Below, piece by piece: positions 4,588-24,786 of a stretch of DNA of 64,000 nucleotides. The stretch comes from Polyangium spumosum. GTDB taxonomy: Bacteria > Myxococcota_A > Polyangia > Polyangiales > Polyangiaceae. The DNA lies in the NCBI RefSeq assembly GCF_009649845.1, contig NZ_WJIE01000014.1, positions 1-64,000 on the forward strand, read 5' to 3'. Under the pieces are notes generated by a model. The model did not search any database and was not told the DNA's origin. It worked only from the letters and a program-made list of their open reading frames with translations. The first letter of the stretch is position 1, and every line of letters starts with the position of its first letter. Position numbers and translations under genes: made by a program.

Positions 4588-4911
4588 ACGATCTCCAGAT
4601 ACACGCCGGCCGAACCGCCGACGTGGCGAGCAAGCAGCAACCAGGATTCTCAATCCGACCTGAACAGACGCATTTTACGCTCGACTCGATACCCAGTCCG
4701 TCGCGGACGGATGAGGAGACACAGCGTGCGTCTGCAATGGCGGGGGCTCGTGCTCAGCGAGGAGAGATCATAGGACGACGCTTCTTCAGCGCCGCGGCCA
4801 CCCTACCGAGCGCCCCCGGATCACGCAAGAAAATTCGCATTCTCCGCACAAACGTTCGTCGGGGCCCGAGATCGTTTGTGCTCAAAATATTGTGGACATT
4901 CCATTCCATGG
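4588..4911. other. Divergent intergenic region, locally AT-richer
   Basis: These 324 bases separate two divergent genes and hold no convincing reading frame. The right part (about 4820-4910) is clearly less GC-rich than its surroundings, with runs such as AAGAAAATTCGCATT and CTCAAAATATTGTGG. It probably holds the promoters of the trehalose gene and of the reductase gene. I could not assign -35/-10 boxes with confidence. Confidence 0.5.
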
Positions 4912-7107: not shown

Positions 7108-7113
7108 TCGCCC

Positions 7114-8619: not shown

Positions 8620-8631
8620 GGAGCCTCGAGG

Positions 8632-10020
8632 TTAACCCTTGTGGCGCGCCTTGATGAGCTGAAAGTACCGCCGCGCGATCCCCGACGCCGCCGCCGCCGC
8701 GCCCACGTTCCCGCCGTGCGCCGCGAGCACGCGCTCCACGTACCTCCGCTCGAACACCTCGACCACGCGCTCTCGCGCGCGGGGGAGCGGCAACTCGAGC
8801 GCGAGGATCTCCTCGATCCAGTCGGCCGCGGACGCGGCCTTCGCGCTTGGCCTCGGCACGCCCGCGGGTTTTGGCGCGCCCGGCCGCGCCGTCGCGATGG
8901 GCGCGAGTTCGCCGAGGGCGACGCGACGCGCGACCGCGTTGTAGAGCTCGCGCACGTTGCCCGGCCAGGCGTAGTCCGTGATACGCGCGGCGAACTCCGG
9001 CGGGAACGGCGTGTCCTTGCTCGCGAGCTTCCGCCAGAAGTGCTGCGCGAGCACGAGCACGTCGCCCGATCGACGCCGCAGCGGCGGCAGCTCGATCCGC
9101 GCCACCGCGAGCCGATAGAACAGATCGTCGCGGAACCTGCCCTCCTGGATCTCGTGATCGAGGTCGCGCCGCGTCGCCGCCAGGATCCGCGCGTCGACGC
9201 GGATCCACCGGTTCGAGCCCACGCGCTGCACCTCCGAGCGCTCGAGCGCGCGCAGCAACTTCGCCTGCAGCGGCAGCTCCAGATCCCCGATCTCGTCGAG
9301 CAGGAGCGTGCCGCCGTGCGCCTCCTCGAACACGCCCTTGCGTGACTCGGTCGCGCCCGTGAACGCCCCGCGCTCGTGCCCGAAGAGCGCGGACTCGACC
9401 AGGTTCGGCGGGACGGCCGTGCAATCGAAGACCACGAACGGCCCGTGCTTGCGTGGCCCCATCTCGTGCAGCGACTCGGCCAGGACCTCCTTGCCCGTGC
9501 CCGTCTCGCCCTCGATGAGCACGGGCACGAGCGCGCCCGAGAGCCGCTCGCAGAGCGGATACAGCGCGCGCATCTCCGGGCTCGCGCCGACCATCGAGCC
9601 GAACCGCACGGCCGAAGGGATCGCCGCGGGCGCCTGATCGGCGAGCCTGTCCACGCGGATCTGCGTCTCGCCCATCGTGACGACCTCGCCGCCCACGAGC
9701 AGCGCGTCGAGCACGGCCACGCCTTGCACCGACGTGCCGTTCGTCGAGTCGAGGTCGGTCACGCGCAGCTTGCCTCGGCGGATCTCGAAGGCCGCGTGCC
9801 TGCGCGAGACCAGCCGATCGTCGATCCGGAGGTCACAGCTCGGGCTCTGCCCGACGAGCACGCGCGACGGGTGCCCCGGGGCGACGGCGAACGTCTGCCC
9901 GCGGCTCGGGCCGGCGACGACCACGAGCGAGAACCCGGGTGAAGCCGCGCGCTCGGGCCTCTGCGCGAGCTCCGTCTCCACCTTGTCGTCGAACACGTCG
10001 TCGTCTTCGAACCCGCTCAT
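8632..10020 (-). CDS. FHA-domain sigma-54-dependent transcriptional activator
   Basis: The 462-residue regulator has an FHA domain (~30-125; VLVGQSPSCDLRI, SRRH at 72-75, DLDSTNGT at 89-96) that should bind phosphothreonine. An AAA+ sigma-54 activator domain follows (Walker A GETGTGKE 171-178, GAFTGA 218-223, DEIGD 242-246). The C-terminal Fis-type helix-turn-helix includes AAHGGNVGAAAAASGI. FHA in place of a response-regulator receiver implies control by Ser/Thr kinases, and a kinase gene lies directly downstream. The start at 10020 (MSGFEDDD) is preferred to an ATG at 10038, which adds six basic residues. Confidence 0.94.
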   Translation of the reverse strand: MSGFEDDDVFDDKVETELAQRPERAASPGFSLVVVAGPSRGQTFAVAPGHPSRVLVGQSPSCDLRIDDRLVSRRHAAFEIRRGKLRVTDLDSTNGTSVQGVAVLDALLVGGEVVTMGETQIRVDRLADQAPAAIPSAVRFGSMVGASPEMRALYPLCERLSGALVPVLIEGETGTGKEVLAESLHEMGPRKHGPFVVFDCTAVPPNLVESALFGHERGAFTGATESRKGVFEEAHGGTLLLDEIGDLELPLQAKLLRALERSEVQRVGSNRWIRVDARILAATRRDLDHEIQEGRFRDDLFYRLAVARIELPPLRRRSGDVLVLAQHFWRKLASKDTPFPPEFAARITDYAWPGNVRELYNAVARRVALGELAPIATARPGAPKPAGVPRPSAKAASAADWIEEILALELPLPRARERVVEVFERRYVERVLAAHGGNVGAAAAASGIARRYFQLIKARHKG

Positions 10021-10096
10021 GCGCCGCCATCTCAGCACGCACGCCCGCTCTCGTCACGAGCAGGCGCGCGCCTCGTTTTTTGCTGGCGCGCCGCGG

Positions 10097-11593
10097 CTAC
10101 GTCCCGCTCCCCGCCGCCTTCGCCTTCGCCGGCGCAGCCTTCCCGAACGTGTACGTCGCCCCGAGGCCGAGGATCGTCGCGCTCGCCGAATACCTCCCGC
10201 CGTTGATGATGTTCGGCTGCGGGGGCGGGTTCGCCACGAGCGGGCTCACCTGCTCGATCTTCGCCTCCCGCGGGTCGACGTCCTGCGAGAACAGGATCAC
10301 GTGCGCCGCCACGACGTCGAGCCGGACCGGCCCCACGTGGAGCCCCGCGCCGATCGAGGGCGTCAGCTTGTTCGAATCGATCGTCAACACCGAGACGTAC
10401 TCCCTCGGCACCGCGCTCGTCTCGAACCGCAAGCCCGCCCGCACGTCGAGCCGCACCTTGCCGAGCGGGATCGTGTATTCGCCGCCGACCTGGGTCGAGA
10501 ACGCGCCCTGGAAATTGCGCTGCAGGTTCACGGGCGGCAGGTAATACGTATCGGGAAAACCCACCACGTTCTTCAGCGCGACGCCGTCCGGATCCACGCG
10601 GATGCTGTCGTGCACGCCCCAATCTTCATAAGCGAACGCGAGCTCCGCGCGTAGTTTGTCCGTCGGCCGCGCCTCGATCCCGAGCCGCACGTTCCACGGC
10701 AGCTCGAAGGCCACGTCCGCGTCCTCCCCCTCCTGCCGCGCCGTCGCGAACGGCGCCGCCGACGGCAGCCGCGTCCGGATCGTCCCGCTCGAGCGCACCC
10801 AGAACGGCAGATGCCCCGACAAACCCACCCTCACCTTGGGGTGCGGGATGTAGATCACCCCCACGTTCCCCGACGGCGCCACGATCGGCCCTACCGCGAG
10901 CTCCGCGAGCACGTCCCACGACGGCTGCTCCGGCGCGCAGAAGAATCGATCCGGCACGCAACCCGAGAAGACCACCGTGCTCCGGAACGTCCCCGCGAGC
11001 ACCTCGATCCCCGCGCCGATCCGCAGGTTCGGCGTCGGCGCGTAGGCCGCGTAAACGCCGCCCACCGCGAGGACCGAGCCTTCGAGCGAGAGCAGCGAAT
11101 ACCGCTGCGGCGCGGGGCCCCCGTTCACCGTCTCCGGATACGTCGCGATCCCCGCATAAGGCGCCCACAGCCCGACGCCCACCACCCATTGGTCGTGCGG
11201 GACGAACGAGAACCCGAGCGTGGGGATCGGCAAAAACGGCGCGCTCCCTCGCACCGGATCGAACGTCTGCTCGCCCTCGCTCACGGTCGCGCCCGTGTTC
11301 GGATCCGTCTGCCGGACGATCGTGCTTCGCGTGTATTCGCTCGAAAAATGAACGTAACTCGCGTCGAAGAGCACGCTCATCCCGGCGTCGAAGAGGCCCG
11401 CCGGGTTGTACACGACGGCGCCGAGGTCGTCGGCGCCCGCGACGAACGCGCCTCCTCGACCGAGCGGACGCACGCCGCGCTCCGAGAGGTAGAGCCCCGC
11501 CGCGGAGGCGGGTCCGGCGAAGAGCCCGAACGAAATGGCGGCCAGCGCGCCGATCGCGGCGGCGCGCCTCCGCGGGGAATTCGTCCGTTTCAT
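10097..11593 (-). CDS. FadL/TodX-type outer-membrane transport protein
   Basis: The 498-residue protein has a cleavable signal peptide (cut expected after GPASA, ~residue 31). Next comes the FadL-family N-terminal hatch: AAGLYLSERGVRPLGRGGAFVAGADDLGAVVYNPAGL. The rest alternates polar and hydrophobic residues as in a 14-strand beta barrel. FadL proteins let hydrophobic molecules such as long-chain fatty acids or aromatics cross the outer membrane. The start overlaps the stop of the large lipoprotein gene as ATGA (11590-11593), so translation is coupled and the two products probably act together. Confidence 0.9.
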   Translation of the reverse strand: MKRTNSPRRRAAAIGALAAISFGLFAGPASAAGLYLSERGVRPLGRGGAFVAGADDLGAVVYNPAGLFDAGMSVLFDASYVHFSSEYTRSTIVRQTDPNTGATVSEGEQTFDPVRGSAPFLPIPTLGFSFVPHDQWVVGVGLWAPYAGIATYPETVNGGPAPQRYSLLSLEGSVLAVGGVYAAYAPTPNLRIGAGIEVLAGTFRSTVVFSGCVPDRFFCAPEQPSWDVLAELAVGPIVAPSGNVGVIYIPHPKVRVGLSGHLPFWVRSSGTIRTRLPSAAPFATARQEGEDADVAFELPWNVRLGIEARPTDKLRAELAFAYEDWGVHDSIRVDPDGVALKNVVGFPDTYYLPPVNLQRNFQGAFSTQVGGEYTIPLGKVRLDVRAGLRFETSAVPREYVSVLTIDSNKLTPSIGAGLHVGPVRLDVVAAHVILFSQDVDPREAKIEQVSPLVANPPPQPNIINGGRYSASATILGLGATYTFGKAAPAKAKAAGSGT

Positions 11594-14500
11594 TCGCGGG
11601 GCCGCTTCTGGACGATGGTGTAGATCTGCTCGAGGCCTCGCGTCGGGCTCGTCAGGAAATCACGCGTCGAGCCGAAGATCGTCTCGTAATCGGTGGGCGC
11701 GAGCGGCCCCGGGTTCGCGGCCGCGTCGATGCGGCTCACCTCGGCCACCGTGTCCATGATGATCTCGAGCGGCGAGAGCCTCGCCACGCCATTCACCGGC
11801 GCCATCGGCGTCACGAGGTTCGGCAGGATGTGATCCATCACGTGGTACCTGTCGTACTCGTCCGCGTTGAGCGCCTTCAAGAGCTGCAACGCCGCCGGCA
11901 ATGCGCCCTTGTCCCCGTCCTCGTCCTCGGGCCGCGCGCCCGGGGCCGCCGCGTTGAGGAGCGGCGCGAGCTCGGCATCCGCGAGCAGCACCTGCAAGGC
12001 GTCCGCGAGCGACGACAGCGTCGCCTCGAGGGCCTGCCCGTCGCTCGCGGCCGAGAGCAGATGATCGAGCAGCCTCTCGAGCTCGCGCCGCGCCGTCTCG
12101 TCCTGCCGGATCTTCTCCAGAAGATCGATGAGCGCGGCCGTCATCGGGCTCTCGAGCCCGTCGGCGAGTGATTTCCCGAGCCCCTCCTTCGCCCACGTGC
12201 ACGGCGTCCCATTCTCGCGATCGGGGCAATGCGCGTTCACCTGCTCGCGGAAGACGCGCAGCGTCGTCGAGAGCGCCCGCGGAATCGCCGGGTTCGCGAA
12301 CTTCGCCGCATCGCCTTCGCCCTCCACGGCGAGGAACTGATCCACGAGCTGCGACCGCGCCCGCTTCCATTGCCCCTTGCGCCGATCCGCGTCCGCCTTG
12401 CACGTCTCGTACGCCGCCTGGCAATCGGCGAGCTCCTGCCCGGTTTTTCCGGAGCAACCACACGCATTGTCGAAGCGCAGATCCATCGCGTGCAGCCCGT
12501 CGGCGAACAAGGTGAACACCGTGGCTTGCGCCTGCGGCGTCCCGTCGGTCCACGTCGTGCCCTTGTTCCCCTTCCGATCCCGGATCCCCGCGTTCTCTGC
12601 GTACGTCGGATCGAACAGGATCTTCGCGGTCTTCTCGAGCACGTCGGCGCCCGTGAGCACCTGCCCCGCGCTCGGCCCGCGCGCGACCGTGATCTTCGAG
12701 ACGTCCCGCATCGCCTTCGAGAACTCGTGCAGCGCGGGCACGACGTCGGTCAAAAATGCGTCGGCCAGGATCGGCTCGTACGTGTTCACGCCGGCGCCCG
12801 AGCAATACAGCGGGTTCGTCTGGGCGTCCCCGCTCGAATCACACTCCGGCCCGTGATCCGGCCCCGGCCAGTGCCGCTTCAGGATCTCGATCAGGTCGAG
12901 CAACATGAGCTCGCCGTCGGCGTTGGACGAGGCGTCGGCGAACGCGGTCACGACGGGCGACAGGTACTCGTAAAAGCCGAACCGCTCGAGCAAAAAGAGC
13001 GTGTTTTTCCCGCGGATCCGGAGGATGTTCGCCGACGTGTCGCACTTGCGCGTGCCCTCCTGCGTCTGCGGACAAACCACGGTGGGGACGGGCTCGATCA
13101 GGCTCGAAATGAAGTCGTTCGTCTTCTTGTTCTTGGCGTTGCCGCCGAGGATGTAGAGGTCGAGGTCCGGCAGGATGCTGAACTGCTCCGACGTCGCGCC
13201 GAAGAAGACCAGCCGGTTCAGCGCCTTCGGCTCCGGCTTCAGCGTGAGCCCCTCGATCCCCGACGACTCCTCGAAAAGCGCGTCCTTGCTCGTGAAGACG
13301 CCGAGGAAGTTCAGGATCCCGTCGAGCACGCCCGATTTGATCTTGAACTCGGCGCGCTTCGGGTGGCCGGGCGGCAGCACCGAGTCGAGGTAAAACACCG
13401 CGAGGTTGGGGAACTCGAGCAGCTCGCATTCGTCGTACGCGGGCACGGGCCAGATCGGCCACGACACGGAGAGCCCGCCGACCGAAGCCTGCACCTTCGC
13501 GCCCTGCTTGTTGCACGCCTTCACGTTGTTCGCGTGATGGATGATGTCGAGCGTCCGCTCCCAGCAAGAGCGGTTCTCCCCCGCGAGGGGCTTCTTCCGA
13601 TCGACGGGCGTCGACGGAGGCAACGTGTTGTTCTGCGTGACGTTCCACGCCAAACCATTGAGGTCGTCGTCGTGATACGTCATCTCGTCGCGGTTCGTCA
13701 TGAACCGCGCGAGCGACTCGCCCATGTGCGCGACGCCGTCCTTCGGCTCGACGAACGCCGGATCCGCGAACGACCCGATGAGCTCGCCCGTGAGCCCCGG
13801 CCGCTGCGTGATCCGCCCCATCACGCCCGCGATCTCGTCCCAGATCGGCGACTCGTACGGCACCTTCGCGAGCTTCTCCAGCCCCTGCGCCGCGAGCGCG
13901 TCGTGATCGAGCGCGATCTTGCGGATCCGGAGCGCCGCCCCGAGCAGCCGCGCGAGCTCTTGCTCGTGGTTCTCCACGAGATCGATGAGCCCGAGCACGA
14001 GCGCGTCCGACTCCGGATCCGCGAGGATCTGCCCGAGCGCATGCGCGAGATCCGGCAGCGGCGACGTGTCCGCCTTGAAGCGCCGGTACGGCACGCAGCT
14101 CTCGCACGTGGTCCCCGCGGGCTTCACCTCCTCGGTCTCGAGATCGTAGACCGCGTCCTCGCGATCCCCGAGCAGCATCGTCGCCCCCGCGACCGCGTAC
14201 ATGAGCGTCTCGCGCTCGCTCTGCCACGCGTCCTCGCCCGCGCCGGGCGCGTACTGCGTCGCGTCCACGAGCGGCGCGAGGTCCTGCGCGATCGCGCCGA
14301 TCAGCGTGCGCGACGTGTCGATGTACTCGTACACGGCAGGTTCGGGGCGCCCGTACACGTCCGTGCCCGGCGTCCCCGCGGGGCTGAAGGGCGCGAGCGC
14401 CGGTACCGGCACGTGGATCGTCGTGACGAACTGGCCGAACTCGTCGGTGTCCGCGAAGCCGTCGCCGTTCGTGTCCGCGAACGGCGCGGGCACCGTGCCC

Positions 14501-15501
14501 GCCTGCCCCGGCACGTTGCCGGAGGGCACGACGAACCCGCGCCGATCCCGCCGCGCGATCCACGTCGATTGCGCGGCAGAATCCTTCGCGTACCGATCGT
14601 GCTGATCGAGCATCACGCGCGAGAGGATCTCGAGCGTCTCCATCGGCCGGTTCGGCTGCGCCTTCGCCGCGTCCACGACGAGCGGCGAGAGCGGCGCGAG
14701 CTCGGGCTTCGAGCTCGCGAGATCCCGCTCCACGACCCTGAGGATCTGCGCGAGCTCGGGCGCCATCACGCCGTCCGGCGCGAGCACGTCGAGCGCGCTC
14801 CCGAGCAGCGGACGCAGGCGCGGGTACGAGAGCAAGGGCCGCACCGCGCCGAGCCCCACGCCCGCCGGCCTGTAGCCTTGCCGGCCCCATATCTTCGAGA
14901 ACGCCTGCCGCGCGGGCTCGCTCTGCATGAACGAGGCGAAGACCTCGCCGAGCGCGCGCGTCGAGGCGGGCACCGTGGGCGTCCCTCCGGGCTCGAACGG
15001 GTTCGACTCGTAGAGCCGCGAGAGGTCCTGGCTGAACGCGAGCAACGCGTCGTGCAGCCGCACCTTGTCGCCCTCGGCCTCGGTGCTGACGTCGTCGATC
15101 TCGACGTCGGGGAAGATCGCGTTGAACGCCTGCACGAGGTCGCTGCGACGCAGCGCCATGGCCTCGACCTTGGCGATCCCGAGCGCGCGCGCCGCCTCCT
15201 GCTCGGGCCCGGTCACGGCCGGCAGGAAGCTCGTATCGACCGTGTCCGCGTAGATGCCCTGGTTCGAGTAGTGGCAGACCGCGTGATACGAGCCGCCCGT
15301 GAGATCGTCCGAGAGCGAGCTCGCGCCGACACGATCACAAAGCACGCCGTAAAGATCGTCGCCGAGCGTGGCCTTGGGCGGCGCGATCCTCGTGGTATCG
15401 ATGCCCTCGTGGCACGACGCGGCCGCGACGACGGTGGCCGCGAGGCCGAGCGGACGAAGAACACGGCGCAAGACAACCGAGCGAGTCAGACGAGCGCGCA
15501 T
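11590..15501 (-). CDS. Very large lipoprotein of unknown function (1303 aa)
   Basis: The signal sequence MRARLTRSVVLRRVLRPLGL leads to AAASC (Cys ~31), a plausible lipobox, so the protein should be lipid-anchored. The mature ~1270 residues are mostly helical and fit no family I know. Visible details are CESC, a DTNGDGFADTDEFG calcium-loop-like segment, and a Cys cluster in CGCSGKTGQELADC. The end is coupled by ATGA to the FadL-type gene. It may be a periplasmic or surface partner of that barrel. The start at 15501 is fixed by the signal peptide; the frame is open further upstream across the divergent gene but has no signal there. Confidence 0.8.
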   Translation of the reverse strand: MRARLTRSVVLRRVLRPLGLAATVVAAASCHEGIDTTRIAPPKATLGDDLYGVLCDRVGASSLSDDLTGGSYHAVCHYSNQGIYADTVDTSFLPAVTGPEQEAARALGIAKVEAMALRRSDLVQAFNAIFPDVEIDDVSTEAEGDKVRLHDALLAFSQDLSRLYESNPFEPGGTPTVPASTRALGEVFASFMQSEPARQAFSKIWGRQGYRPAGVGLGAVRPLLSYPRLRPLLGSALDVLAPDGVMAPELAQILRVVERDLASSKPELAPLSPLVVDAAKAQPNRPMETLEILSRVMLDQHDRYAKDSAAQSTWIARRDRRGFVVPSGNVPGQAGTVPAPFADTNGDGFADTDEFGQFVTTIHVPVPALAPFSPAGTPGTDVYGRPEPAVYEYIDTSRTLIGAIAQDLAPLVDATQYAPGAGEDAWQSERETLMYAVAGATMLLGDREDAVYDLETEEVKPAGTTCESCVPYRRFKADTSPLPDLAHALGQILADPESDALVLGLIDLVENHEQELARLLGAALRIRKIALDHDALAAQGLEKLAKVPYESPIWDEIAGVMGRITQRPGLTGELIGSFADPAFVEPKDGVAHMGESLARFMTNRDEMTYHDDDLNGLAWNVTQNNTLPPSTPVDRKKPLAGENRSCWERTLDIIHHANNVKACNKQGAKVQASVGGLSVSWPIWPVPAYDECELLEFPNLAVFYLDSVLPPGHPKRAEFKIKSGVLDGILNFLGVFTSKDALFEESSGIEGLTLKPEPKALNRLVFFGATSEQFSILPDLDLYILGGNAKNKKTNDFISSLIEPVPTVVCPQTQEGTRKCDTSANILRIRGKNTLFLLERFGFYEYLSPVVTAFADASSNADGELMLLDLIEILKRHWPGPDHGPECDSSGDAQTNPLYCSGAGVNTYEPILADAFLTDVVPALHEFSKAMRDVSKITVARGPSAGQVLTGADVLEKTAKILFDPTYAENAGIRDRKGNKGTTWTDGTPQAQATVFTLFADGLHAMDLRFDNACGCSGKTGQELADCQAAYETCKADADRRKGQWKRARSQLVDQFLAVEGEGDAAKFANPAIPRALSTTLRVFREQVNAHCPDRENGTPCTWAKEGLGKSLADGLESPMTAALIDLLEKIRQDETARRELERLLDHLLSAASDGQALEATLSSLADALQVLLADAELAPLLNAAAPGARPEDEDGDKGALPAALQLLKALNADEYDRYHVMDHILPNLVTPMAPVNGVARLSPLEIIMDTVAEVSRIDAAANPGPLAPTDYETIFGSTRDFLTSPTRGLEQIYTIVQKRPRE

Positions 15502-15612
15502 GACGACCCTCCCACGACCGTGGATTGTACCTGACCTCGGTCTTTTACGGAACGCCGTCGTTCGACGATTGTCACGGGCGGCGCGGCCAAAGGTTGCTAC
15601 ATCTCGCCGCGC

Positions 15613-16530
15613 ATGACGTTCATCCCCGAGGAACCCGAGGTCCCGGAGGCGCAACGCGCATCGGGGCCGCTGGTCATACGATACGAGGACATTGGCCAGA
15701 ACGGAAAACTCCTGCTCGACGCGATGCCCGTGGTGCTCGGGCCTTCGGTGTGGCGAGCGGTGTGGCAACAAGGCGCGACGGTGGCGCTCGCGGCGGAGGG
15801 GATCATCCCGATCCTGAGCCGCTTCGTGCTGGAGGGCGGCGCGGGTCCGCTGTCGGTGTGGTCGCCGGTCGAGGGGGAGGGCCGGTTCCAGATCGCGCAT
15901 ACCGTGGGCGCGGACGGCGCCGTCGAGCGGCTGATGCTCAACATGTGGTGCAACGTGTACGGCGAGGCGGGCCGCACGCACGGGCCCGCGCCGGCGAACG
16001 CGGGCGAGCGATTGCTCGCGGGTCGCGTCTACGCCGAGCACGTGATCACGCGCCCGTTCGGGCCGCCGGAGGCGCGCAAGATCACGCGGCTCTCGGTGCC
16101 GGGTCTGCCCGAGGTGCCGCCCGATCGCGCGACGTGGCGGCCGCCGGAGGCCTCGATCGAGCTGCCCCCCGGGGCGCGCTGGGTCGACGACGTCTTCGCG
16201 CTCGACCCTGTGCCGGTGGTCTTCGGGCTCGACCATACCGACTCGAACCAGCACGTCAATTCGCTGGTCTACCCACGCCTCTTCGTGGAATCCGCGCTGC
16301 GACGATTGTGGGACCACGGGAGAAAGACGCCGCTGCTCGCGCGAACCGCGGAGATCGCCTACCGAAAGCCGAGCTTCGCCGGCGAGCGGGTGCGGGTCGC
16401 GTCACGCGTGTTCGTGAAGGGCGACGCGATGGGCGTGGCCGCGATGCTGGTGTCGGACGAGGAGGCCGCGGGGCCGCTCGAGAAGGCGCGGCCGCGGGTG
16501 TTCGCGCGGATGTGGTTCAACGAGGGCTGA
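15613..16530 (+). CDS. Hotdog-fold thioesterase-like protein
   Basis: The 305-residue cytosolic protein ends in a hotdog-type domain with LDHTDSNQHVNSLVYPRLFVE (from ~206; Asn212, His214, Asn216). This resembles the catalytic/CoA-site helix of acyl-ACP thioesterases (NxHVNNxxY). The pattern AEIAYRKPSFAGERVRV that follows is the usual next strand pair. The N-terminal half may be a second, degenerate hotdog domain, as in plant and bacterial FatA/B-like enzymes. Function as an acyl-thioester hydrolase is an inference. It is divergent from the large lipoprotein gene and ends 17 nt from the convergent 142-aa gene. Confidence 0.7.
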   Translation: MTFIPEEPEVPEAQRASGPLVIRYEDIGQNGKLLLDAMPVVLGPSVWRAVWQQGATVALAAEGIIPILSRFVLEGGAGPLSVWSPVEGEGRFQIAHTVGADGAVERLMLNMWCNVYGEAGRTHGPAPANAGERLLAGRVYAEHVITRPFGPPEARKITRLSVPGLPEVPPDRATWRPPEASIELPPGARWVDDVFALDPVPVVFGLDHTDSNQHVNSLVYPRLFVESALRRLWDHGRKTPLLARTAEIAYRKPSFAGERVRVASRVFVKGDAMGVAAMLVSDEEAAGPLEKARPRVFARMWFNEG

Positions 16531-16547
16531 ACCGTTCCCTGACGGAT

Positions 16548-16976
16548 CTATCCCCTCGACGCTCCCGACAGAGGTGCATCTGCACCCGTGAGCAGGAACT
16601 CCAGGCGATCCGCCTCTCGCGCGAGCACGAGCAGATAAAATCGGAGCTCCGCCGGCGAGACCGTGCTCGCGCGACAAACCACCGTGGCTTCGACCCTCCC
16701 CCACCGCGCCACGCGCCGGAACGAAACGACCCGCGTGGCGCGGTTCTGCTGAAGGAGGATCCTCGCGAGATCGGCGTCACGGAGGCTCAGGATCTGCCCG
16801 GCGCGCGCGACGATCGCGCGAAGAACGAGCGAGTCCCTGCTCGCATCGTGCTCCCAGCGTACCTCGTGCCCGCGCCCCGATTTTGGCCATACGATGGTGA
16901 CGACGCTCCCCTCCAGGGAGAACCTCGCCTTCTCGTCCGAGTGGGCACAGGCAGCTTTCAGACACCTATCCATCAT
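16548..16976 (-). CDS. Small last gene of the PLD-helicase cassette, unknown
   Basis: This 142-residue protein overlaps the end of the helicase gene by 11 nt and has no good Shine-Dalgarno sequence, so it probably relies on translation running through from that gene. The N-terminal half is beta-rich (ARFSLEGSVVTIVWP, HEVRWEHD, SLVLRAIVA). The end is a helix, SPAELRFYLLVLAREADRLE. This beta-then-helix layout recalls YbjN/secretion-chaperone-like folds (weak inference). No catalytic motif is visible. It may be an accessory or regulatory subunit of the helicase; I do not recognise the family. Confidence 0.7.
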   Translation of the reverse strand: MMDRCLKAACAHSDEKARFSLEGSVVTIVWPKSGRGHEVRWEHDASRDSLVLRAIVARAGQILSLRDADLARILLQQNRATRVVSFRRVARWGRVEATVVCRASTVSPAELRFYLLVLAREADRLEFLLTGADAPLSGASRG

Positions 16977-19900
16977 GCGCCGTGGCCCGCTCCTTCTTTA
17001 GATCCTCTTTGAACGTCTCGTACTCGCGATCTTCATCCGACAGGAGCACGTGCTCCACGTCGTCCGCGCAAAGCGCGACCGCGGCGAAGAGATCACAGAG
17101 TTCTTCCACGTCGGTCGTCTCCGGATCGAGCAGGACATCCCCCTCCACGGTCACTGTATAGCTCCGCAACCCCTCCCCCTCCGAGACGAGACAGATGCGC
17201 GCGCCCAGGAATGTTTCCTGATATTCCAGCAGCTTCGCCAGGGCGGGCTCGTCCTCGCGAATGCATCCAACCGGACTCGTTAAATGCACGAGTGCCCGCC
17301 CCTCGATCGGCGCGCCTTCGACGTATAGCAAAAATGGTTGTTGCCGCACACCATTCTCGCCCCAAGGGTCTTTTTCCTGCGGGCGGAGGAGCCGTGGCCC
17401 CCGCCTATAGGTCGTCCCCACACCCGCTTCACGCTTCTCGTCGTGCCAATCGATCCGGATCCGTTTCCCGAGGGATTTCACGAGCTCCGAGAAGTGTGCG
17501 ACACACGCCTCGGCCCGCTCCTCCTTCTCCGCTGGATTGATCTTTTGTGTCCCGCGCAGGAGCTTCGGATCAATCTCGAACTTCGTCTCGAGCCGCCCCT
17601 CGATCGGGGCCGTGTCGCGTTCGTCCCTGGCGAAGGCCTGGTCCACGTGAACTGACGACTCGCGGCTCCTGGTCCCGAGATCCTCGCCGCCGAACGACTG
17701 GTGCATCGCTCGAACGAAGCGATTCATCTTGCGGAAGAGCCGCGCCATCTGGAGTCGCTCTACGGTCTCTCCGAGGTACGGGTATTGTGCCTCGAGCTTC
17801 TCGTCCACCCGCACCGGCCGATCGAGCGCGCCGAGTCGCCGGTGCGTCGCAGAACCAATCCGATCGATTCGACCCGTTCGCTGCTCCATCTCTGAAGGAT
17901 TCCAGGCGATGCCGTAATGGATGACCTTCGAGCAGAACGTGTGGAGATCTTCACCCTCCTTCACGACGTCCGTGGAGACCAGGACGAGTGGATACCCCGG
18001 CATCCGAAACTGCTTCACGATCCGAGGCGTGACACCACCGAACATCCCGGCGACCGGTCGCTGTGCGGAGAGCTCCTTGCGCAACTCCTTGCGTATCGAA
18101 TCCGTATACTTGGCTCGCTTCGCCTCCGGGAAGTTCAGGCGGACGATCTCGTCGAAGTTCTGCGAGACGCTCGACAGCTCATACATCGCCGTGAGCCCAC
18201 CACGACAGATCTCGGATTCGAGGCGATCACAGTATTTATTCAACAACTTCGATACGACGTCATGGCTGCGCTCGGCTCGCCTCGCCTCGAGCGAGCCGAA
18301 TAAATCGGCTGCGAGCGCCCATAACGTGATGAAGGCGTGCCCAAGCCGCGCGGTACATGAAAGCAATTCCCGGCGCAGCTCCCGATCGAGCGCAAACTGT
18401 GCGGGCCGCTCGAATCTGGTCGGAAAGAACACCCGCGCGAGCGCTGGACGCTCCTGCACTCCCGAGAAAAATGTCCGGATCTTGAGATACTCGTCCGGCC
18501 CCGGAAAGGAGCTCCGCTCCGTCCGCTCCGGCTCCCGCTTCGTGCCGGGAAAGCGCAAGTCGAGGAGCGCCTCGGCCTCCGCCCACCTCTTGAACGAGAG
18601 CCGCGCCCCCGCGAGCACGACGAGCGCGGCGGCTTGATATGCCTCGAAAATGGCACGCCGTGGAACCTCACCTCGCCTCCCCCGGACCCTCGACGTCGCG
18701 ATGCGCCGGAGCCGCTCACCGAGCGCTGCCCGGTTCTGCTCCACGGCCCGGGAGAGCGCGCCCAGCGGATCCTCGCTCGCCGCAGCGCCAAGCAAGAGGA
18801 GGACATAGTTTTCGTCGAAGAACGTGCCGAAGGGTGACGTGTCACCCTGAAGCTGGTTGTTTCGGAAAGACGCCCCCGAGAAGCATTTCTCCGGCCCCGT
18901 GCCTCGGAAGAACCACGAAAAGAACGTAACGTCGTCGTTCGGATCGTCGACCTCTCCCGACTCCTCGTCCGTGGCGCTGCGTGGCGCCCCTCCCTCCTCC
19001 CCCTCAACGCGAGGCGCCTCCTCTTCGATGTGCGAAGCGAGCATTCGACTCTGGCGCCACGCTCGATACCTCTCGAATACTTTCCCGAGCTCGTACCCCA
19101 TGTTCGGCAACTCGCGGCGGAGGTTCTGCTCGATCCACGCGTCGTAATGGTCGCGGAGCTTCTCACCGATCTCCTGGACGCTCCGGATGCGCCGGACGAA
19201 GACGAGCGCCTTCTGACCATCGCCGAACGTCGTGCGAAGGCTGTCGACGACGCAATCCATCTTGGGGTGCGGCATCGGGCGCTGGGCCACGTGCTTGTAG
19301 TAGGACGTCCGGAGCCCCTTGATGACGCCGACGTCGGCCCCTTCCTTCTCGGCATCGGTCTCCGCCTGCTCCGAGCCGTCGAAATTCGCGTCTTCCCCGG
19401 AGGATCCGCGCCGCTTCTTGCGCGCCGTTTCTCCGAAGCTCTCGAACGAGGCGAGCATTCCCATTTGAAACGTCTTGTCGAATTTCGGGTGCCGAATGAC
19501 CTCCGCGACCTTCCGCTGGACGAGCGCCACGACCAGCCGACTCTGAGCGTCCGGGACCTCGAGCGCCTCGTCGTGCGTCCGCACGCCTCCGCCCCGCCAC
19601 TCGCGGCGGTACATGTTCTTCGTGTACGTATCACCCGCTACATCGAGGCGCGTGAGCCGACGGATCATGAACTCCTTCGCCCGCTTTTCGGCGTCCTCGC
19701 CGAGAAGGGCGCTCCCCGACGTCTCGAACCCGAACAACGCGAGCTGATGGTGAAGTTCTTCGTAATGGCTCTCAAGGGGCGTCGCCGAGAGGAACAGTAC
19801 CCGATCGAAGCGCTTCCCCCAGAGCGGAAACGCCTCGTGCGCACCGTCCGGCGCCGAACCTAGCGTCATCGCGAGCAGACGATTGCGCGCCGACACGCGG

Positions 19901-20589
19901 CCGGAGTCGCCATACCCATGCTTCAGGTTGTGCGCCTCGTCTATGATGACGAGATCGTAATGCGGCAGCAGCGCGTTGATGCTCCGCGCGTACGCGTCTT
20001 TGAATGCGTTGTTGTCCTGGAGCGAACGCAGGTCGAGGCCCGCGCGTTCGAGCATCGGCCCCAGCCGGACGAGTTCGTCCCTCATCCGCTTCTTGCTCTC
20101 CCGCGCCGCGCTCTCCTCCTGCGCCATGCCGAAGCTGAAGCTCGGGAGCCGCAAGAACACGTCCCGGTCCGGGTTCTTCACGACCTCCTCCGCCCATCCT
20201 GGCAGGCTGTGGCAGGCAACCGCAGGCCGCGCAGGCGTGTTGCCGAAGGACTTCACGACGAGGTCCGTGGCAAGGTAGTTCGTGGCGACGAGGTTCCTCC
20301 ACTCCTTGAGCCACTTTTCTTGGATGTTCTTCTTGGGCGCGATCACCAGCACGCGCAGATCCGGATGCGCGAATCGGAGCAGGCAAAGGACGCCGAGCGC
20401 CACGTACGTTTTGCCCATCCCTACCTCGTCGGCGAGATAGGCGAAGTCTTGCGTCGCGAGTATGTTGTGGAGCGCCACGGCGCCGCGGAGCTGCTCGGCG
20501 GCCAGGTGCTCACCGATGGGGCCATTCGCGTGAAAATCTAGGAGCTTTTTGGCTTCGGAAAAGCCGATGCGCGTGATGGGCTTGCTCAT
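16966..20589 (-). CDS. SNF2-type superfamily 2 helicase of PLD-helicase cassette
   Basis: The 1207-residue protein has a Swi2/Snf2-like ATPase: Walker A in LADEVGMGKTYVALG (57-61), DEAH at 217-220 (LVIIDEAHNLKHG), SAT at 268-270, and motif VI QRTGRIDRIG at ~903-912. Between the two RecA lobes is an insert of several hundred residues with acidic stretches, much larger than in a minimal helicase. A ~290-residue C-terminal extension follows motif VI. SNF2 enzymes pump along double-stranded DNA rather than unwinding it. The start overlaps the PLD gene stop (ATGA 20586-20589) and has a GAGGAGGA site. Partners of this kind occur in phage-defence systems such as DISARM, but the neighbours here differ. 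Confidence 0.92.
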   Translation of the reverse strand: MSKPITRIGFSEAKKLLDFHANGPIGEHLAAEQLRGAVALHNILATQDFAYLADEVGMGKTYVALGVLCLLRFAHPDLRVLVIAPKKNIQEKWLKEWRNLVATNYLATDLVVKSFGNTPARPAVACHSLPGWAEEVVKNPDRDVFLRLPSFSFGMAQEESAARESKKRMRDELVRLGPMLERAGLDLRSLQDNNAFKDAYARSINALLPHYDLVIIDEAHNLKHGYGDSGRVSARNRLLAMTLGSAPDGAHEAFPLWGKRFDRVLFLSATPLESHYEELHHQLALFGFETSGSALLGEDAEKRAKEFMIRRLTRLDVAGDTYTKNMYRREWRGGGVRTHDEALEVPDAQSRLVVALVQRKVAEVIRHPKFDKTFQMGMLASFESFGETARKKRRGSSGEDANFDGSEQAETDAEKEGADVGVIKGLRTSYYKHVAQRPMPHPKMDCVVDSLRTTFGDGQKALVFVRRIRSVQEIGEKLRDHYDAWIEQNLRRELPNMGYELGKVFERYRAWRQSRMLASHIEEEAPRVEGEEGGAPRSATDEESGEVDDPNDDVTFFSWFFRGTGPEKCFSGASFRNNQLQGDTSPFGTFFDENYVLLLLGAAASEDPLGALSRAVEQNRAALGERLRRIATSRVRGRRGEVPRRAIFEAYQAAALVVLAGARLSFKRWAEAEALLDLRFPGTKREPERTERSSFPGPDEYLKIRTFFSGVQERPALARVFFPTRFERPAQFALDRELRRELLSCTARLGHAFITLWALAADLFGSLEARRAERSHDVVSKLLNKYCDRLESEICRGGLTAMYELSSVSQNFDEIVRLNFPEAKRAKYTDSIRKELRKELSAQRPVAGMFGGVTPRIVKQFRMPGYPLVLVSTDVVKEGEDLHTFCSKVIHYGIAWNPSEMEQRTGRIDRIGSATHRRLGALDRPVRVDEKLEAQYPYLGETVERLQMARLFRKMNRFVRAMHQSFGGEDLGTRSRESSVHVDQAFARDERDTAPIEGRLETKFEIDPKLLRGTQKINPAEKEERAEACVAHFSELVKSLGKRIRIDWHDEKREAGVGTTYRRGPRLLRPQEKDPWGENGVRQQPFLLYVEGAPIEGRALVHLTSPVGCIREDEPALAKLLEYQETFLGARICLVSEGEGLRSYTVTVEGDVLLDPETTDVEELCDLFAAVALCADDVEHVLLSDEDREYETFKEDLKKERATAHDG

Positions 20590-22634
20590 CCCCGGTCCTC
20601 CTCGTGCTCCCCGCGCTCGACGTTTCTACGGAACCAGCGATCAAACCACGCGAAGAACCGCCGGCGATGCTCGGCATCTTCGAAGGTGAACGTCGCTCGG
20701 ATGGTGTCGACGTTCTCCCCGAGCTTCTTCTCCAGCTCTCGACGCCGCTTCGCGTGTTCCTCGAGGAAACGCGCGACGAGCACATCCCCCAGCCGATCGA
20801 AGCGGTCGAAGAGGACTTGGACCGACAGGAGCGTGACGTATCGATGCACGCGATCTCCCGCGTCGTCCTTGATCACGCGATCCAGGAGGGCTGGCAGCGT
20901 ATCGAACCCCTTTCCGAACAACAAAAACTCGGCCTCGCGGGGCCGTTTGTCCTGGATGGCCTGGACCACCCGATCCTCAAGACGGAAGAAGCCATGATAG
21001 ATGCCCGCGACGCCATCGAACAAACTCTTCTCCGCGTCCTTCGAAGTCGCATCCACGCGTCCGACGGTGCTGCCGAGCGTGGTGGCCTCTAGCGAGCGCT
21101 CCAGCGCGATCTGCCGCTGATCTTCGCTGAGCGACGACCAGGCCCGCAGGATGTCCTCCGCCGTCCACTGCACCCCCTCTGCATAGGACGGTTTTTCGAT
21201 GATGCCGATCTCTTGCACGAGCACGATCGCCTCGCCACGCTCGCCCGCCTGGGCGGTAAGATACGACGTGCCGCGGAGCTTCTCGGCGATGACGCGGGAT
21301 ACGTCGTCCCGGAATGGCACCCAAGCGTTCGATTGGACGGGCGCGATCACCGTGATCGGCACGCCCCCGGAGGTGACCGAGATTCGCCTGGGAACAGCAT
21401 CCACCTGCTCGTCCCAGTAATAGGACGCCATCCCATTCCCCCAGTCGTAGCGGAGGTACAGCGGAAGGACGATGACGTCATCGATGTCTTCTTCGTCGTC
21501 GACCTCCTCCGGATCCGCGAAGATCTTGGGCCGTCCCGACCGTCCGAGAGGCGTGAGCAAGGGACGCGGGCCCTCGGCATATTTGTCGAGGACCAGGAAG
21601 GCCGCCTCCAGGTTCCCCTGGCGGCAGCTCTCGTGTGCTGCGCCGGTTAGGTTCACGGAGCCGACGAGTGAATACTCCCTGCCATCCTGCAAGAGGAGCC
21701 TGTAGAGCTTCGCGTGCACCCGGCGCAGCTTCGCCTTGCTGTCCTTCTCGGACGACCTTCGATGCTGGGCAGGTAGATCGGACCAGGTGGCGAGGTCCTC
21801 GACAGCTTCGAAGTACGCCTCGGAGCAAGCCGCCTTGCCATTCTCGTCTGTCGGCAGATAGACACGAATTTCGGTCGGAGACAGGGCTTCCGCGAGCGCG
21901 CGGAGAGGGGCCGCGTCGGATTCATCGAAATAGGGCGACACAATCTCCAGCTCGCATCGGTTGCGTACGCCGCGGACCAGCGTCTCCGCGAAAAACTCCG
22001 TGAGCGTGCTCTGCCCGACGAAAATCCGCGTCTTCTTCCGCTCGTCTGGCTGGAGCCCACGAGCGAATTTGTCGATCTCGTCCAATGCCGGGTGCTCGTC
22101 GTCCGGTGGCGCGTCGCTCCGGATGTTCCTTAGCAGGTGGCGCAGATCGTCCCGAAACGAGCATTTCGTCCCCTCCGCGACCTCTTCGATGTGAAAGCAC
22201 TCCAGGCTGGTGAAGTACCCGGGCTCCGTGAGGTTCGCCGACGAGATGCAAATCACGAGGCGCCGAGACCGCTTCGCTCCATCCCCGTCGGTGACGAGGG
22301 CGAGGACGACCTTCGGGTGAAACCTCGTCTTGTTCCGGCGCACGATGGCGCGGTACGTGACGGCAAGGCGCGGCGACGTGACTTGCTGGAGCCCTGCCCG
22401 ATCGTAATAGACGGCGACCTCCGCGATTCCCTCTCGTAGTGCCCTGTCGGTCTCGCACATTCGCGCGCGGGTGTGGTGCGAGAACGTCTTGTCCCAGAGA
22501 ACTGGGAGCACGTTCTCCTCGAAGAACGCGGGCTCGAATGTGTAGGTGGTGAAGACCGCGGCCTCGACGCGACCCTTGCCGATGGCATCGCGTAATGCAT
22601 CGCAGAGCGAGTTCTCGGGAATGGGGCTTTGCAT
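20586..22634 (-). CDS. Two-site phospholipase D-family nuclease
   Basis: The 682-residue protein carries two PLD half-sites in one chain: HPK at 106-108 with ISSANLT at 130-136, and HAK at 307-309 with GSVNLTGAA at 325-333. The second is followed by GNLEAAF, whose Glu is also typical. This HxK...SxNLT form is found in PLD-type restriction nucleases and DISARM DrmC-like proteins, whereas lipid-cleaving enzymes usually keep HxKx4D. No signal peptide is present, so it should act on nucleic acid in the cytosol. The C-terminal ~300 residues are unassigned and end in a charged helical tail. It overlaps the upstream gene by one base (TGATG). Confidence 0.88.
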   Translation of the reverse strand: MQSPIPENSLCDALRDAIGKGRVEAAVFTTYTFEPAFFEENVLPVLWDKTFSHHTRARMCETDRALREGIAEVAVYYDRAGLQQVTSPRLAVTYRAIVRRNKTRFHPKVVLALVTDGDGAKRSRRLVICISSANLTEPGYFTSLECFHIEEVAEGTKCSFRDDLRHLLRNIRSDAPPDDEHPALDEIDKFARGLQPDERKKTRIFVGQSTLTEFFAETLVRGVRNRCELEIVSPYFDESDAAPLRALAEALSPTEIRVYLPTDENGKAACSEAYFEAVEDLATWSDLPAQHRRSSEKDSKAKLRRVHAKLYRLLLQDGREYSLVGSVNLTGAAHESCRQGNLEAAFLVLDKYAEGPRPLLTPLGRSGRPKIFADPEEVDDEEDIDDVIVLPLYLRYDWGNGMASYYWDEQVDAVPRRISVTSGGVPITVIAPVQSNAWVPFRDDVSRVIAEKLRGTSYLTAQAGERGEAIVLVQEIGIIEKPSYAEGVQWTAEDILRAWSSLSEDQRQIALERSLEATTLGSTVGRVDATSKDAEKSLFDGVAGIYHGFFRLEDRVVQAIQDKRPREAEFLLFGKGFDTLPALLDRVIKDDAGDRVHRYVTLLSVQVLFDRFDRLGDVLVARFLEEHAKRRRELEKKLGENVDTIRATFTFEDAEHRRRFFAWFDRWFRRNVERGEHEEDRG

Positions 22635-23956
22635 CAAGCGCGCCCCACGACGGTGCGACCTATCGCCTTCAAGCTGTTCATGAAATACGAGTTGGTCCAG
22701 AGGTGCGGCAACTCTTTTCGCGACGGGAGCGGAGGCCCATCGTCCCCACGAAACCGTACATCGAGCTTGCCGCGGTCGATCTTCACCCACGGCGCCGCGC
22801 CGCCACGCGCCCTCATGACGGCCTCGTTCTGCTCGAGCACGAGGCGGATCGCGTCGCCGTACTTCCCACGCTGCATCGCGAGGCCCGCATCGAGGATACG
22901 CTTGCGGGTGTTGTCCGAAGCCGCGTGATCGAAGAGCACGATCGCTCCTCGCGGCAATGCATCCGGCTCGAGATGAACGAGCCCCTTGCCCCACGTCTCC
23001 TCCACGTCCCGAGCGACGTCCTTCACCGAGCGGCTCCCGCAACGCATCAGGTAACCGAAGAGCCGCGCCACCGCGCCGAGGAGCGGCTCGACGTGGCGGA
23101 TGTACGAGAGGCGCTCGGCCAAGGCGCCGCGACCCTCTTTCTCCGCGCGTAACAGAAGCTCGTCCAGGTCTTTCATAACAAACCAGGTTTCCCACGGTAC
23201 CCGCTTGGAATCGTAGACCTCGACCATGGTCTCCCATAGCTCCCGTTGCCGAGCGCGGACCGATGGCGCCATTCCCTCCCCGCCGCGGACCAGCGTATTC
23301 AGATAATAGTCGAGCTCTTCGCCTTCGACCCTCGGCACGAGCTGCCTGGCGAGCGCGGCTGCGCACGCCTTGTGCTTGTTGTAGGGGTCGAAAATTGCGG
23401 CCTCCTTCTTCCCAATAAGGTCATCTATCGCCCTCTCGAAGCCGCGGAGCCTGCTCGCATGGAAGCTCTCGACGAACTGATAGGCAGAGGGCGTCAGCCT
23501 CTGCACGTGCGCGTCGAAGATCCCGCTCTTGCGCGCGGCCTGGCTGTACAAGCCCCACAATCCATAGGTCCGCTGATCACTCAAGATCTGATGCGCCGGG
23601 TCCGCGGAAATCTTCACGCTCCCCCCGCTCGCGAGGCGTCCTTTCACCCGCTCGATACCGCGCAGCTCTCCCCGGAGCCCTTCTTGCCCCGCCGCGTGAC
23701 GGCTATACGCGGCGAGCTGCTCGGCCCGCAGGAACAACGCGAGCCGTGCTCCTTCGCTGACCTTCCCGCGCTCGACGAGGCGATCCACGAAATACATGCC
23801 CAAGATGAGTGTCGTAAACCCACGCAAGGAGGTCGTGACCGTCGTCAGGTTGCCAACGACCTCCCGCCCAAACGCGCTCCAGATGGGCTCGAAGCCCAGT
23901 GGATCCCGAGACCCCTTCACCTTGGCTCGATCGTCAATCTTCGTAAAAAAGACCAT
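22634..23956 (-). CDS. First gene of PLD-helicase cassette, unrecognised family (440 aa)
   Basis: This 440-residue cytosolic protein begins VFFTKIDDRAKVKGSRDPLG and has no motif I can tie to a known enzyme. It is rich in charged helices. A weakly hydrophobic patch (FTTLILGMYFVDRLV, ~47-61) is too short and polar to be a sure membrane segment. The start is at 23956, with a GAGGA site 5 nt upstream that overlaps the stop codon of the permease gene (23965-23967). Cotranscription from the znu promoter is therefore likely. The stop is shared with the PLD gene start (TGATG). Strict coupling with a nuclease and a helicase suggests a sensor, specificity or scaffold subunit (inference). Confidence 0.8.
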   Translation of the reverse strand: MVFFTKIDDRAKVKGSRDPLGFEPIWSAFGREVVGNLTTVTTSLRGFTTLILGMYFVDRLVERGKVSEGARLALFLRAEQLAAYSRHAAGQEGLRGELRGIERVKGRLASGGSVKISADPAHQILSDQRTYGLWGLYSQAARKSGIFDAHVQRLTPSAYQFVESFHASRLRGFERAIDDLIGKKEAAIFDPYNKHKACAAALARQLVPRVEGEELDYYLNTLVRGGEGMAPSVRARQRELWETMVEVYDSKRVPWETWFVMKDLDELLLRAEKEGRGALAERLSYIRHVEPLLGAVARLFGYLMRCGSRSVKDVARDVEETWGKGLVHLEPDALPRGAIVLFDHAASDNTRKRILDAGLAMQRGKYGDAIRLVLEQNEAVMRARGGAAPWVKIDRGKLDVRFRGDDGPPLPSRKELPHLWTNSYFMNSLKAIGRTVVGRA

Positions 23957-23964
23957 GCCCGTCC

Positions 23965-24786
23965 TCACCGCTTCTTGAACAGCAGCGAAAGCCCGAACAG
24001 CGCCCCCAGCGTCAGGATGATCGTCGCGCCGCTCGCCACGTTCGCGTGGTACGAAAGAATCAATCCAATCGACGATCCGATCGTCCCGATCGCAATCGCG
24101 AGCAGCGCCACCCGCCCGATGCTCCGGCCCACCATCTTGGCCGTCGCCGCCGGGATCACCACGAACGAGCTCACGAGCGCGATCCCCACCGTCTTCACCG
24201 CCACCACGATCACGACCGCCGTCAGCGCCAGCAGCATGTAATCGAGCGCGGCCACCTTCACGCCCGAGAGCGCGGCGAGCTCCGGGTCGAACGTCGCATA
24301 CGCGAGCTTCGTCCAGGTGAACGCCAGGAGAAGCGCCGTCACCACGCCCACCACGCCCACCGTGAGCAGGTCCTCCGGCGATATCGCGAGGATGCTCCCG
24401 AAGAGCACCGTCTCCACGTTCACCTGCGGCCCGTCCGTCGATCGGAGCCCCAGAAGCAGCACGCCGAGCGCGAACGACACGGCCGAAAACACGCCCGTCG
24501 CCACGTCCCCGCGCAGGCTCCCGCGCCGGAGGACGTACCCGATCCCGAGCGCGATCAGCACCGTGAACGGCAGCGCCACCCAGGTCATCCGCTCCAGCGA
24601 CACGCCGAGCAGGAGCCCGAGGGCGATGCCCCCGAACGCCGCGTGCGCGAGGCCGTCGCCGATGAACGACAGGCCACGCTGCACCACGAACACGCCGATC
24701 ATCGCGCACAGACCCCCCACCACCGCGCCGGCGATCATCGCCCGCTGCATGAAGGGGACCAGCAAGGGCTCGAGCAACGCGTCCAC
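23965..24786 (-). CDS. znuB: Metal ABC transporter permease
   Basis: The 273-residue protein has about eight membrane helices and the ABC-3 family pattern: VVGGLCAMIGVFVVQRGLSFIGDGLAHAAFGGIALG near the N-terminus and AVKTVGIALVSSFVVIPAATAKM late in the chain. It forms the membrane pore of a ZnuABC/MntABC-type importer in the inner membrane. It starts 6 nt after the ATPase gene. The metal (Zn2+ or Mn2+) is inferred from the His-rich partners. The stop codon lies within the ribosome-binding site of the next cassette. Confidence 0.92.
   Translation of the reverse strand: MDALLEPLLVPFMQRAMIAGAVVGGLCAMIGVFVVQRGLSFIGDGLAHAAFGGIALGLLLGVSLERMTWVALPFTVLIALGIGYVLRRGSLRGDVATGVFSAVSFALGVLLLGLRSTDGPQVNVETVLFGSILAISPEDLLTVGVVGVVTALLLAFTWTKLAYATFDPELAALSGVKVAALDYMLLALTAVVIVVAVKTVGIALVSSFVVIPAATAKMVGRSIGRVALLAIAIGTIGSSIGLILSYHANVASGATIILTLGALFGLSLLFKKR

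Follow-up and report, generated by a model that had tools for sequence, protein, structure and literature searches.

What do four overlapping genes that join a predicted PLD-superfamily nuclease to an SNF2-type ATPase encode in the soil bacterium Polyangium spumosum, and do they belong to a known system? We present here an analysis of this cassette, located in a 64,000-nucleotide (nt) stretch of DNA (positions 1 to 64,000 of contig NZ_WJIE01000014.1, our contig C14; hereafter, the window) from a 10.76-Mb genome. The cassette has no methylase and is a four-gene form of the listed defense candidate PDC-M27. With moderate confidence, we read it as a horizontally moving, restriction-like anti-phage (or anti-mobile-element) system of the PDC-M27 type with a fourth subunit, remotely related to Zac. 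The genes are called A to D; other loci (L) and genomes (G; G000 is that of the window) are given by our own handles. The features lie in the window as follows.

22634 to 23956, minus strand: gene A, 440 amino acids (aa), PDC-M27A family (PADLOC PDC-M27A, E value 1.4e-18), remote kin of ZacA/DUF6361
20586 to 22634, minus strand: gene B, 682 aa, predicted PLD-superfamily nuclease with two HKD half-sites per chain (PLDc_2, ZacB, and PDC-M27B matches)
16966 to 20589, minus strand: gene C, 1207 aa, SNF2/RapA-type ATPase (PDC-M27C, E value 3.3e-82; Pfam Helicase_C and ResIII)
16969 to 17859, minus strand: C-terminal tail of C, 297 residues past motif VI; its end resembles D (profile-profile comparison), and it has no Pfam match
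16548 to 16976, minus strand: gene D, 142 aa, TY-chaperone (type III secretion chaperone/YbjN) fold in a predicted model
23957 to 23965, minus strand: upstream edge of the cassette, an 8-nt gap plus the last base of the znuB-like stop codon
16531 to 16547, no strand: downstream edge, a 17-nt gap between the stop of D and the stop of a convergent thioesterase-like gene

All four minus-strand open reading frames (ORFs) are open over their full lengths. A and B share one base in TGATG, B and C overlap by ATGA, and C and D overlap by 11 nt; the positions, lengths, and joins given in a preliminary description of this DNA were all recovered. One other genome of the genus carries the cassette (G150, taken as Polyangium sp. 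y55x31). Identities between the two copies are 85.7% (A), 75.1% (B), 83.3% (C), and 84.5% (D), with no stops, and the ratios of nonsynonymous to synonymous substitution (dN/dS) are 0.17, 0.21, 0.16, and 0.17, respectively. The ORFs are not due to chance, because identity is 75 to 86% without stops, dN/dS is 0.16 to 0.21, and the order A-B-C recurs in 24 of 30 A-bearing loci. Synonymous divergence between the same two genomes is 0.47 to 0.74 in the cassette and 0.23 and 0.35 in the two flanking genes tested, and the GC content is 63.5% in the cassette versus 69 to 70% in the flanks; the raised divergence and lower GC content fit a separate history of the cassette.

All four proteins were searched against Pfam, PADLOC-DB, and NCBIfam. 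By profile match, A, B, and C are the A, B, and C components of the PADLOC candidate system PDC-M27. A matches PDC-M27A in two stretches, the better one spanning positions 302 to 451 of 460. B matches PDC-M27B (E value, 5.6e-15) with residues 11 to 398 on profile positions 4 to 377 of 635, and its ZacB match (8.4e-17) is slightly stronger. C also matches ZacC (1.2e-21) and DrmD (1.4e-21) in PADLOC-DB, the best ZacC stretch being the helicase motif region. These matches rule out an unlisted gene set, and the earlier statement that the cassette matches no named system fails with them. Not all four proteins match a named system, since D matches nothing: its best PADLOC-DB hit, a model of another system, is at chance level (E value, 0.019), and no PDC-M27 model matches it. 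In Pfam, B has a weak PLD domain (PLDc_2; E value, 1.4e-5; 25.4 bits versus a cutoff of 27) and C has helicase domains, with no match for A or D and none to CesT or YbjN for D. NCBIfam gave DISARM, Dpd, and other helicase matches, all far below their cutoffs. PDCs are described, in an excerpt of PMC12988326, as putative candidates from a guilt-by-embedding approach. Literature term searches returned no paper naming PDC-M27, ZacABC, or DUF6361, or Zac together with PADLOC, and the letter strings ZacA, ZacB, and ZacC were unrelated among the matches listed. The PDC list reportedly comes from Payne et al. 2024.

The relation to Zac was traced through A. Among 15 A proteins scanned with PADLOC, 8 match PDC-M27A at 1e-10 or better (the window, L020, L021, L055, L057, L063, L064, and L066), and the A protein of L069 matches ZacA (E value, 5.3e-11) and bridges the two families. 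ZacA is matched weakly (4e-5 to 0.005) by A of L060, L062, L067, and L071, and A of L022 and L026 matches neither PDC-M27A nor ZacA at 0.01. The window's genome has a second A-B-C set, the divergent L069 (G000:C2:91000-110900, 7894-13791), whose A matches DUF6361 below the cutoff (E value, 1.1e-4). A third set in this genome, L087 (G000:C8:360000-379900), is a genuine ZacABC (E values, 5.7e-71, 7.7e-94, and 3.7e-240), the A of which matches DUF6361 above the cutoff (5.9e-8); it directly adjoins DISARM DrmC, DrmB, and DrmA and an AbiU-like gene (6687-13152, 13147-19900). Because relatives of A bridge ZacA/DUF6361 and the window A, PDC-M27 and Zac seem to be two branches of a single A-PLD-SNF2 cassette superfamily. 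The L069 set is followed by a 294-aa protein that by eye resembles a PD-(D/E)XK transposase-type nuclease.

D is probably a subunit left out of the PDC-M27 listing and is new here. Its model (5 sequences) has a predicted local distance difference test score (pLDDT) of 88.5 and a predicted template modeling score (pTM) of 0.83, with the topology helix, four strands, two helices, two strands, and helix. The best structure matches are 8q8o (Z, 13.1; root mean square deviation [rmsd], 2.4; 122 aligned), ExsC 3kxy (12.7; 2.2; 112), and VecA 9uwz (12.3; 2.7; 120), followed by CesT 5z38 (11.3), other type III secretion system chaperones, DR_1245 4h5b (10.9), and YbjN (10.3); 36 entries score Z 9.3 or more, after which scores fall to 5.3. 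The predicted structure, modeled confidently, is thus a TY-chaperone fold (helix, beta meander, helix).

The distribution of D follows one part of the tree of C. A 5-row D profile gave strong matches in 4 of 377 genomes, each beside A-B-C. The first profile (3 rows) missed D of L064 and L066; both came to light when the ORF behind C was read in 23 loci, and counts from the earlier profiles are therefore low. D stands behind C in the window, L008, L020, L055, and L057, which form one side of a branch with support of 100/100. L063, L064, and L066 form the neighboring branch, and all eight loci together are supported at 100/99. In L066, D was recognized by hhalign (P, 2e-5; score, 34.4, with 100 shuffles reaching 19.7 at most), and overall D is found behind C in seven of the eight. 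These eight loci and L021 are exactly those whose A matched PDC-M27A. In the 16 remaining loci, among them the Zac locus and the plasmid, a 7-row D profile finds no match behind C at an E value of 1, within the limits that only 383 nt are left behind C in L022 and that L068 is not readable.

The same eight loci have a long tail on C, with 266 to 340 residues past motif VI versus 75 to 137 in the remaining rows. The last ~45 residues of the tail match the last strand-helix module of D with a score of 28.5, reached by none of 100 column shuffles (maximum, 19.3) and by none of 15 windows from B and the front of C (18.0 or less). With 7 rows on each side, hhalign gives a P value of 4.8e-5 and a probability of 68%. 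Among five control tails, that of L060 just clears its own shuffles (17.8 versus 17.5). A global alignment of D over the whole tail is weak (P, 0.045), and only the local match is used. The likeness of the tail end to D is modest and holds at the profile level; the tail as a whole may adopt the chaperone fold.

Two loci hold other SNF2-like genes. In L097 (G365:C29:356000-375900, 12137-17696), a larger D-like protein with a weak Pfam CesT match (E value, 0.005, below the cutoff) is encoded upstream of a different, 1499-aa SNF2-like protein, and the pairing of a TY-chaperone with SNF2 may recur in another system. In L054 (G487:C139:20000-39900, 12959-19899), a second SNF2-like gene (1301 aa; C profile, 2.6e-24) lies beside A-B-C, and the protein after it resembles by eye, at its start, the protein behind the SNF2 gene of L097.

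The active-site motifs of B and C are kept. B carries the two HxK...SxN sites of the preliminary description, at H106 and H307, and both half-sites are kept in 27 of 27 aligned B rows. In the PLD superfamily, two HKD halves generally form one active site. C carries Walker A, DEAH, SAT, and QRxGRxxR motifs, with motifs I, II, III, V, and VI present; about 400 residues separate motif IV (464) from motif V (872), which agrees with the very large insert described before. Its homologues keep Walker A GKT, motif II DE[AFI][HQ], and motif VI QRxGR where these are visible, with the exceptions of L067, which differs around motif I, and L068, which is cut before motif V. The solved sequences nearest to C are RapA chains (E value, 7e-5). 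In A, D18 and G100 are invariant across an alignment of 23 homologues, and P19, L20, E79, Q128, G132, G135, Y137, F300, V380, and W390 are nearly so. The confident A model (23 sequences; pLDDT, 87.5; pTM, 0.86) is mostly helical, with 19 helices. It matches nothing in the PDB, where Foldseek reaches an E value of 0.42 and VIA-align a Z of 4.1 at best, and nothing among viral models (best E value, 0.36); this lack of a structural match to the predicted model does not prove a new fold.

The cassette is patchily distributed. A as a single query was found in at least 9 of 183 genomes of the order, the window's own included, and an A profile in at least 19 of the 377 phylum genomes, with about 4 candidates scored in each. 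Loci with an A match were examined in 30 cases, the window and one plasmid included. A-B-C occur in order in 24 of these, with C of L068 cut by the contig end and A of L067 weak (3.6e-7). The other six are L021 (A-B, the contig ending in B), L058 (A interrupted by a stop, with a short B), L059, L061, and L065 (parts of A only), and L070 (a weak A followed by B, no C found); relics of A are present in four loci. The 24 ordered loci come from 11 families of the phylum and one plasmid of Methylocystis, an alphaproteobacterium, and the conservation of gene order in unrelated genomes, raised as a check earlier, is thus wide for A-B-C.

The history of the cassette was followed with distances and a tree. 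Across 23 loci, among them the Zac locus, the distance matrices of the A, B, and C proteins agree closely (r, 0.946, 0.968, and 0.953; none of 2000 permutations reached these values), a result that common descent of entire cassettes would also give. In the midpoint-rooted C tree, the window and L008 share a group with L020 from the same family, L055 from a different family of the class, and L057 from a different class. This group stands apart from L026 and L069, which belong to the window's family or genome; rows L067, L069, and L087 have long branches and unsure placement. As the C tree conflicts with taxonomy, it suggests either movement of the cassette between lineages or an early duplication. 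Viral contigs held no relative of the L026 A or the window C (single proteins; close relatives only), and no plasmid held the window A or B. The A proteins of L026 and L022 each match one plasmid, the same Methylocystis record. C of L022 matches 166 plasmid records, this one among them, none over more than 80% of the query; these are general SNF2-type pieces.

Within the genus, one site is seen in three states. Of six genomes, two carry the cassette there (G000 and G150), one carries a Uma2-family putative restriction endonuclease gene (G149; L084, G149:C1, 9210-10052; PF05685; E value, 8.7e-14), and three are empty (G148, G151, and G152), the matched ends of the flanking gene pair lying 16 nt apart when the stop codons are counted. 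This site is a small hot spot. The window and L008 are alike in having zinc ABC transporter genes (named by eye) on one side and the thioesterase-like gene, which has weak Pfam matches only, on the other. Direct or inverted repeats at the cassette edges are only 7 to 9 bases long and no more than those of random piece pairs.

Elsewhere, some copies of the cassette lie near other defense genes. A PADLOC scan of chosen neighbors in 11 loci, partly picked for a defense-like look and made with no control set, found defense-type neighbors in 7. These are BREX genes (PglZ-BrxD-BrxHI at L026 and BrxD-BrxHI at L070), type I restriction R and M genes (beside the L055 and L060 cassettes), PDC-S02 (L067), an LmuB-like gene (L056; 7e-22), and a type II enzyme-like gene (L053; 1.7e-15). 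By annotation, SIR2, ATPase, Fic, and 7-cyano-7-deazaguanine synthase (QueC-like) genes lie near the Methylocystis plasmid copy. At L021 (G055:C212, 2705-5971), a HEPN (MAE_28990-like) gene and a DUF2779 gene, the latter a weak Cas4-like match, lie upstream of A-B and are perhaps part of a defense island. At L070 (G476:C95:70000-89900, 4836-13261), the weak A and a B without C directly follow BrxD-BrxHI, and the A-B pair may work there with another motor, behind the BrxHI helicase.

From these data, we infer a mechanism for the restriction-like system that we favor. C would load on incoming DNA and translocate, and B would cut the DNA fed to it by C, its two HKD halves forming one active site. 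A, which accompanies B and C and has no recognized fold, may be an adaptor or sensor coupling B to C. Because TY-chaperones bind a peptide or domain, D would do likewise, its partner most likely being the D-like tail of C, and may keep the motor off or unassembled until infection. The cassette has no methylase, and self and non-self would for this reason be told apart by the ends of the DNA, its state of replication, or a phage protein, and not by a mark that the system itself sets. In an excerpt of PMC9142583, DISARM offers a model in which loading on DNA ends precedes nuclease action. The translocating helicase feeding a PLD nuclease, proposed in the preliminary description, thus stands as an inference, now placed in a mobile and partly defense-associated cassette. 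A bolder version, put forward only tentatively, is that a chaperone-fold pair controls the motor: the TY-chaperone domain ending C would pair with D, a phage peptide or the release of D would switch on methylase-free restriction, and A would be a new fold.

Several points weigh against the favored reading. Association with defense islands, raised earlier as a check, holds for some copies, beside BREX or type I restriction, and does not hold for the window copy, which lies outside any island, among housekeeping-type genes; the scanned neighbors were chosen, and 4 of the 11 loci gave no defense-system match (none at L063, L064, and L066; a weak Cas4-like match, 2.6e-6, at L021). The excerpt of PMC9142583 also describes DrmC, the PLD protein of DISARM, as dispensable, and the effector therefore does not have to be B. 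L063 lacks a separate D, although the end of its C tail resembles D (P, 0.003; 0 of 60 shuffles) and D is perhaps fused there, and D of L064 is weak and clears its shuffles narrowly (P, 0.01; 20.4 versus a maximum of 19.5; 0 of 100 as high). The 5-row D profile had weaker matches in three more genomes, and the two examined (L097 and L098) lack A and B. The likeness of the C tail to D spans only about 45 residues, and the single tails of L066, L008, and L057 are equaled or exceeded by some of their shuffles (2, 1, and 1 of 60, respectively). Operon, motifs, and folds are read from sequence or prediction, and the activity is putative.

Four other explanations were weighed. An abortive-infection device, in which C and A would sense infection, B would degrade host and phage DNA, and D would be an antitoxin-like catch on B or C, draws on the absence of a protective methylase, on D as a small last gene with a modeled chaperone or regulator fold, and on the TY-chaperone fold noted, in an excerpt of PMC9503650, in predicted viral-conflict systems. 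We regard it as unlikely, as A-B-C exist without D outside the D clade, so that a dedicated antitoxin is not general, and as C keeps a full motor that a plain toxin would not need. That the target is plasmids or conjugation rather than phages is similarly unlikely in our view; a motor and nuclease with no modification gene would suit any entering DNA, and one copy is itself plasmid-borne. Nothing was found against this alternative, and the association with BREX and type I restriction does not discriminate between phage and plasmid.

A host machine for DNA repair or chromosome processing, a RapA-like remodeler with a PLD nuclease and no part in defense, would agree with RapA as the nearest solved relative of C and with DR_1245, a fold neighbor of D that the title of a cited reference names as a DdrB partner. 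It is improbable given the patchy occurrence (at least 9 of 183 genomes in the order and 19 of 377 in the phylum, and 2 of 6 in the genus), the relics of A, the tree against taxonomy, and the neighboring BREX and restriction-modification genes. Highly improbable is a zinc-responsive function, with the cassette as the tail of a zinc-uptake operon serving zinc starvation. A does start only 8 nt past the stop of a zinc-transporter permease gene (presumably znuB-like, among zinc ABC transporter genes; named by eye), as if at the tail of that operon, and in the same place in the second cassette genome of the genus; yet among 31 other cassette loci, made up of 30 A-bearing or plasmid stretches and the Zac locus and several of them short, only L008 has the znuB-like or the thioesterase-like gene, and the two genes are directly adjacent in three genomes of the genus. 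More probably, the site serves as a landing point and supplies a promoter.

For the restriction-like reading, the gain is that a listed defense candidate acquires a probable missing subunit, D, and an active-site layout of a double-HKD nuclease with an SNF2 motor, together with a link to Zac and a natural present, empty, and swapped site within one genus. If D does gate the motor, the cassette would illustrate how host DNA is spared by a restriction-like system that has no methylase of its own, a question common to several nuclease-helicase defenses.

Among known systems, DISARM (DrmA, DrmB, DrmC, DrmD, and a methylase) shares with the cassette a PLD protein and an SNF2-like helicase. Membership is ruled out, as the matches lie below the NCBIfam cutoffs (C to DrmD, E value 4.8e-25, 88 bits versus 610; B to DrmC, 25.9 bits versus 133) and none of the four proteins is a DrmA, a DrmB/DUF1998 protein, or a methylase; C has a single DrmA-labeled match (2e-17), which falls on its helicase motif region. 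The absence of DUF1998, methyltransferase, and queuosine-type genes from the cassette, as first described, held. BREX-related type 2 systems have the same effector pair, an HKD nuclease and a Swi2/Snf2 helicase, and differ by an N6-methylase that shields self DNA, as given in an excerpt of PMC12839542; none is among the four proteins here. Zac (ZacA DUF6361, ZacB PLD, ZacC SNF2) has the same three-gene layout as A-B-C, and B and C match the ZacB and ZacC models, C best in its helicase motif region, but the window A has no ZacA or DUF6361 match at an E value of 1, and the Zac locus L087, unlike the window, has a short C tail (137 residues) and no D match. PDC-M27 is matched by each of A, B, and C, and D, outside every PDC-M27 model, is the difference. 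D shares its modeled fold with the TY-chaperones of the type III secretion/YbjN superfamily and, unlike them, sits behind an SNF2 gene in a nuclease operon. The proposed pair of D and the C tail may be likened to SycN-YscB, a heterodimeric secretion chaperone (PDB 1xkp).

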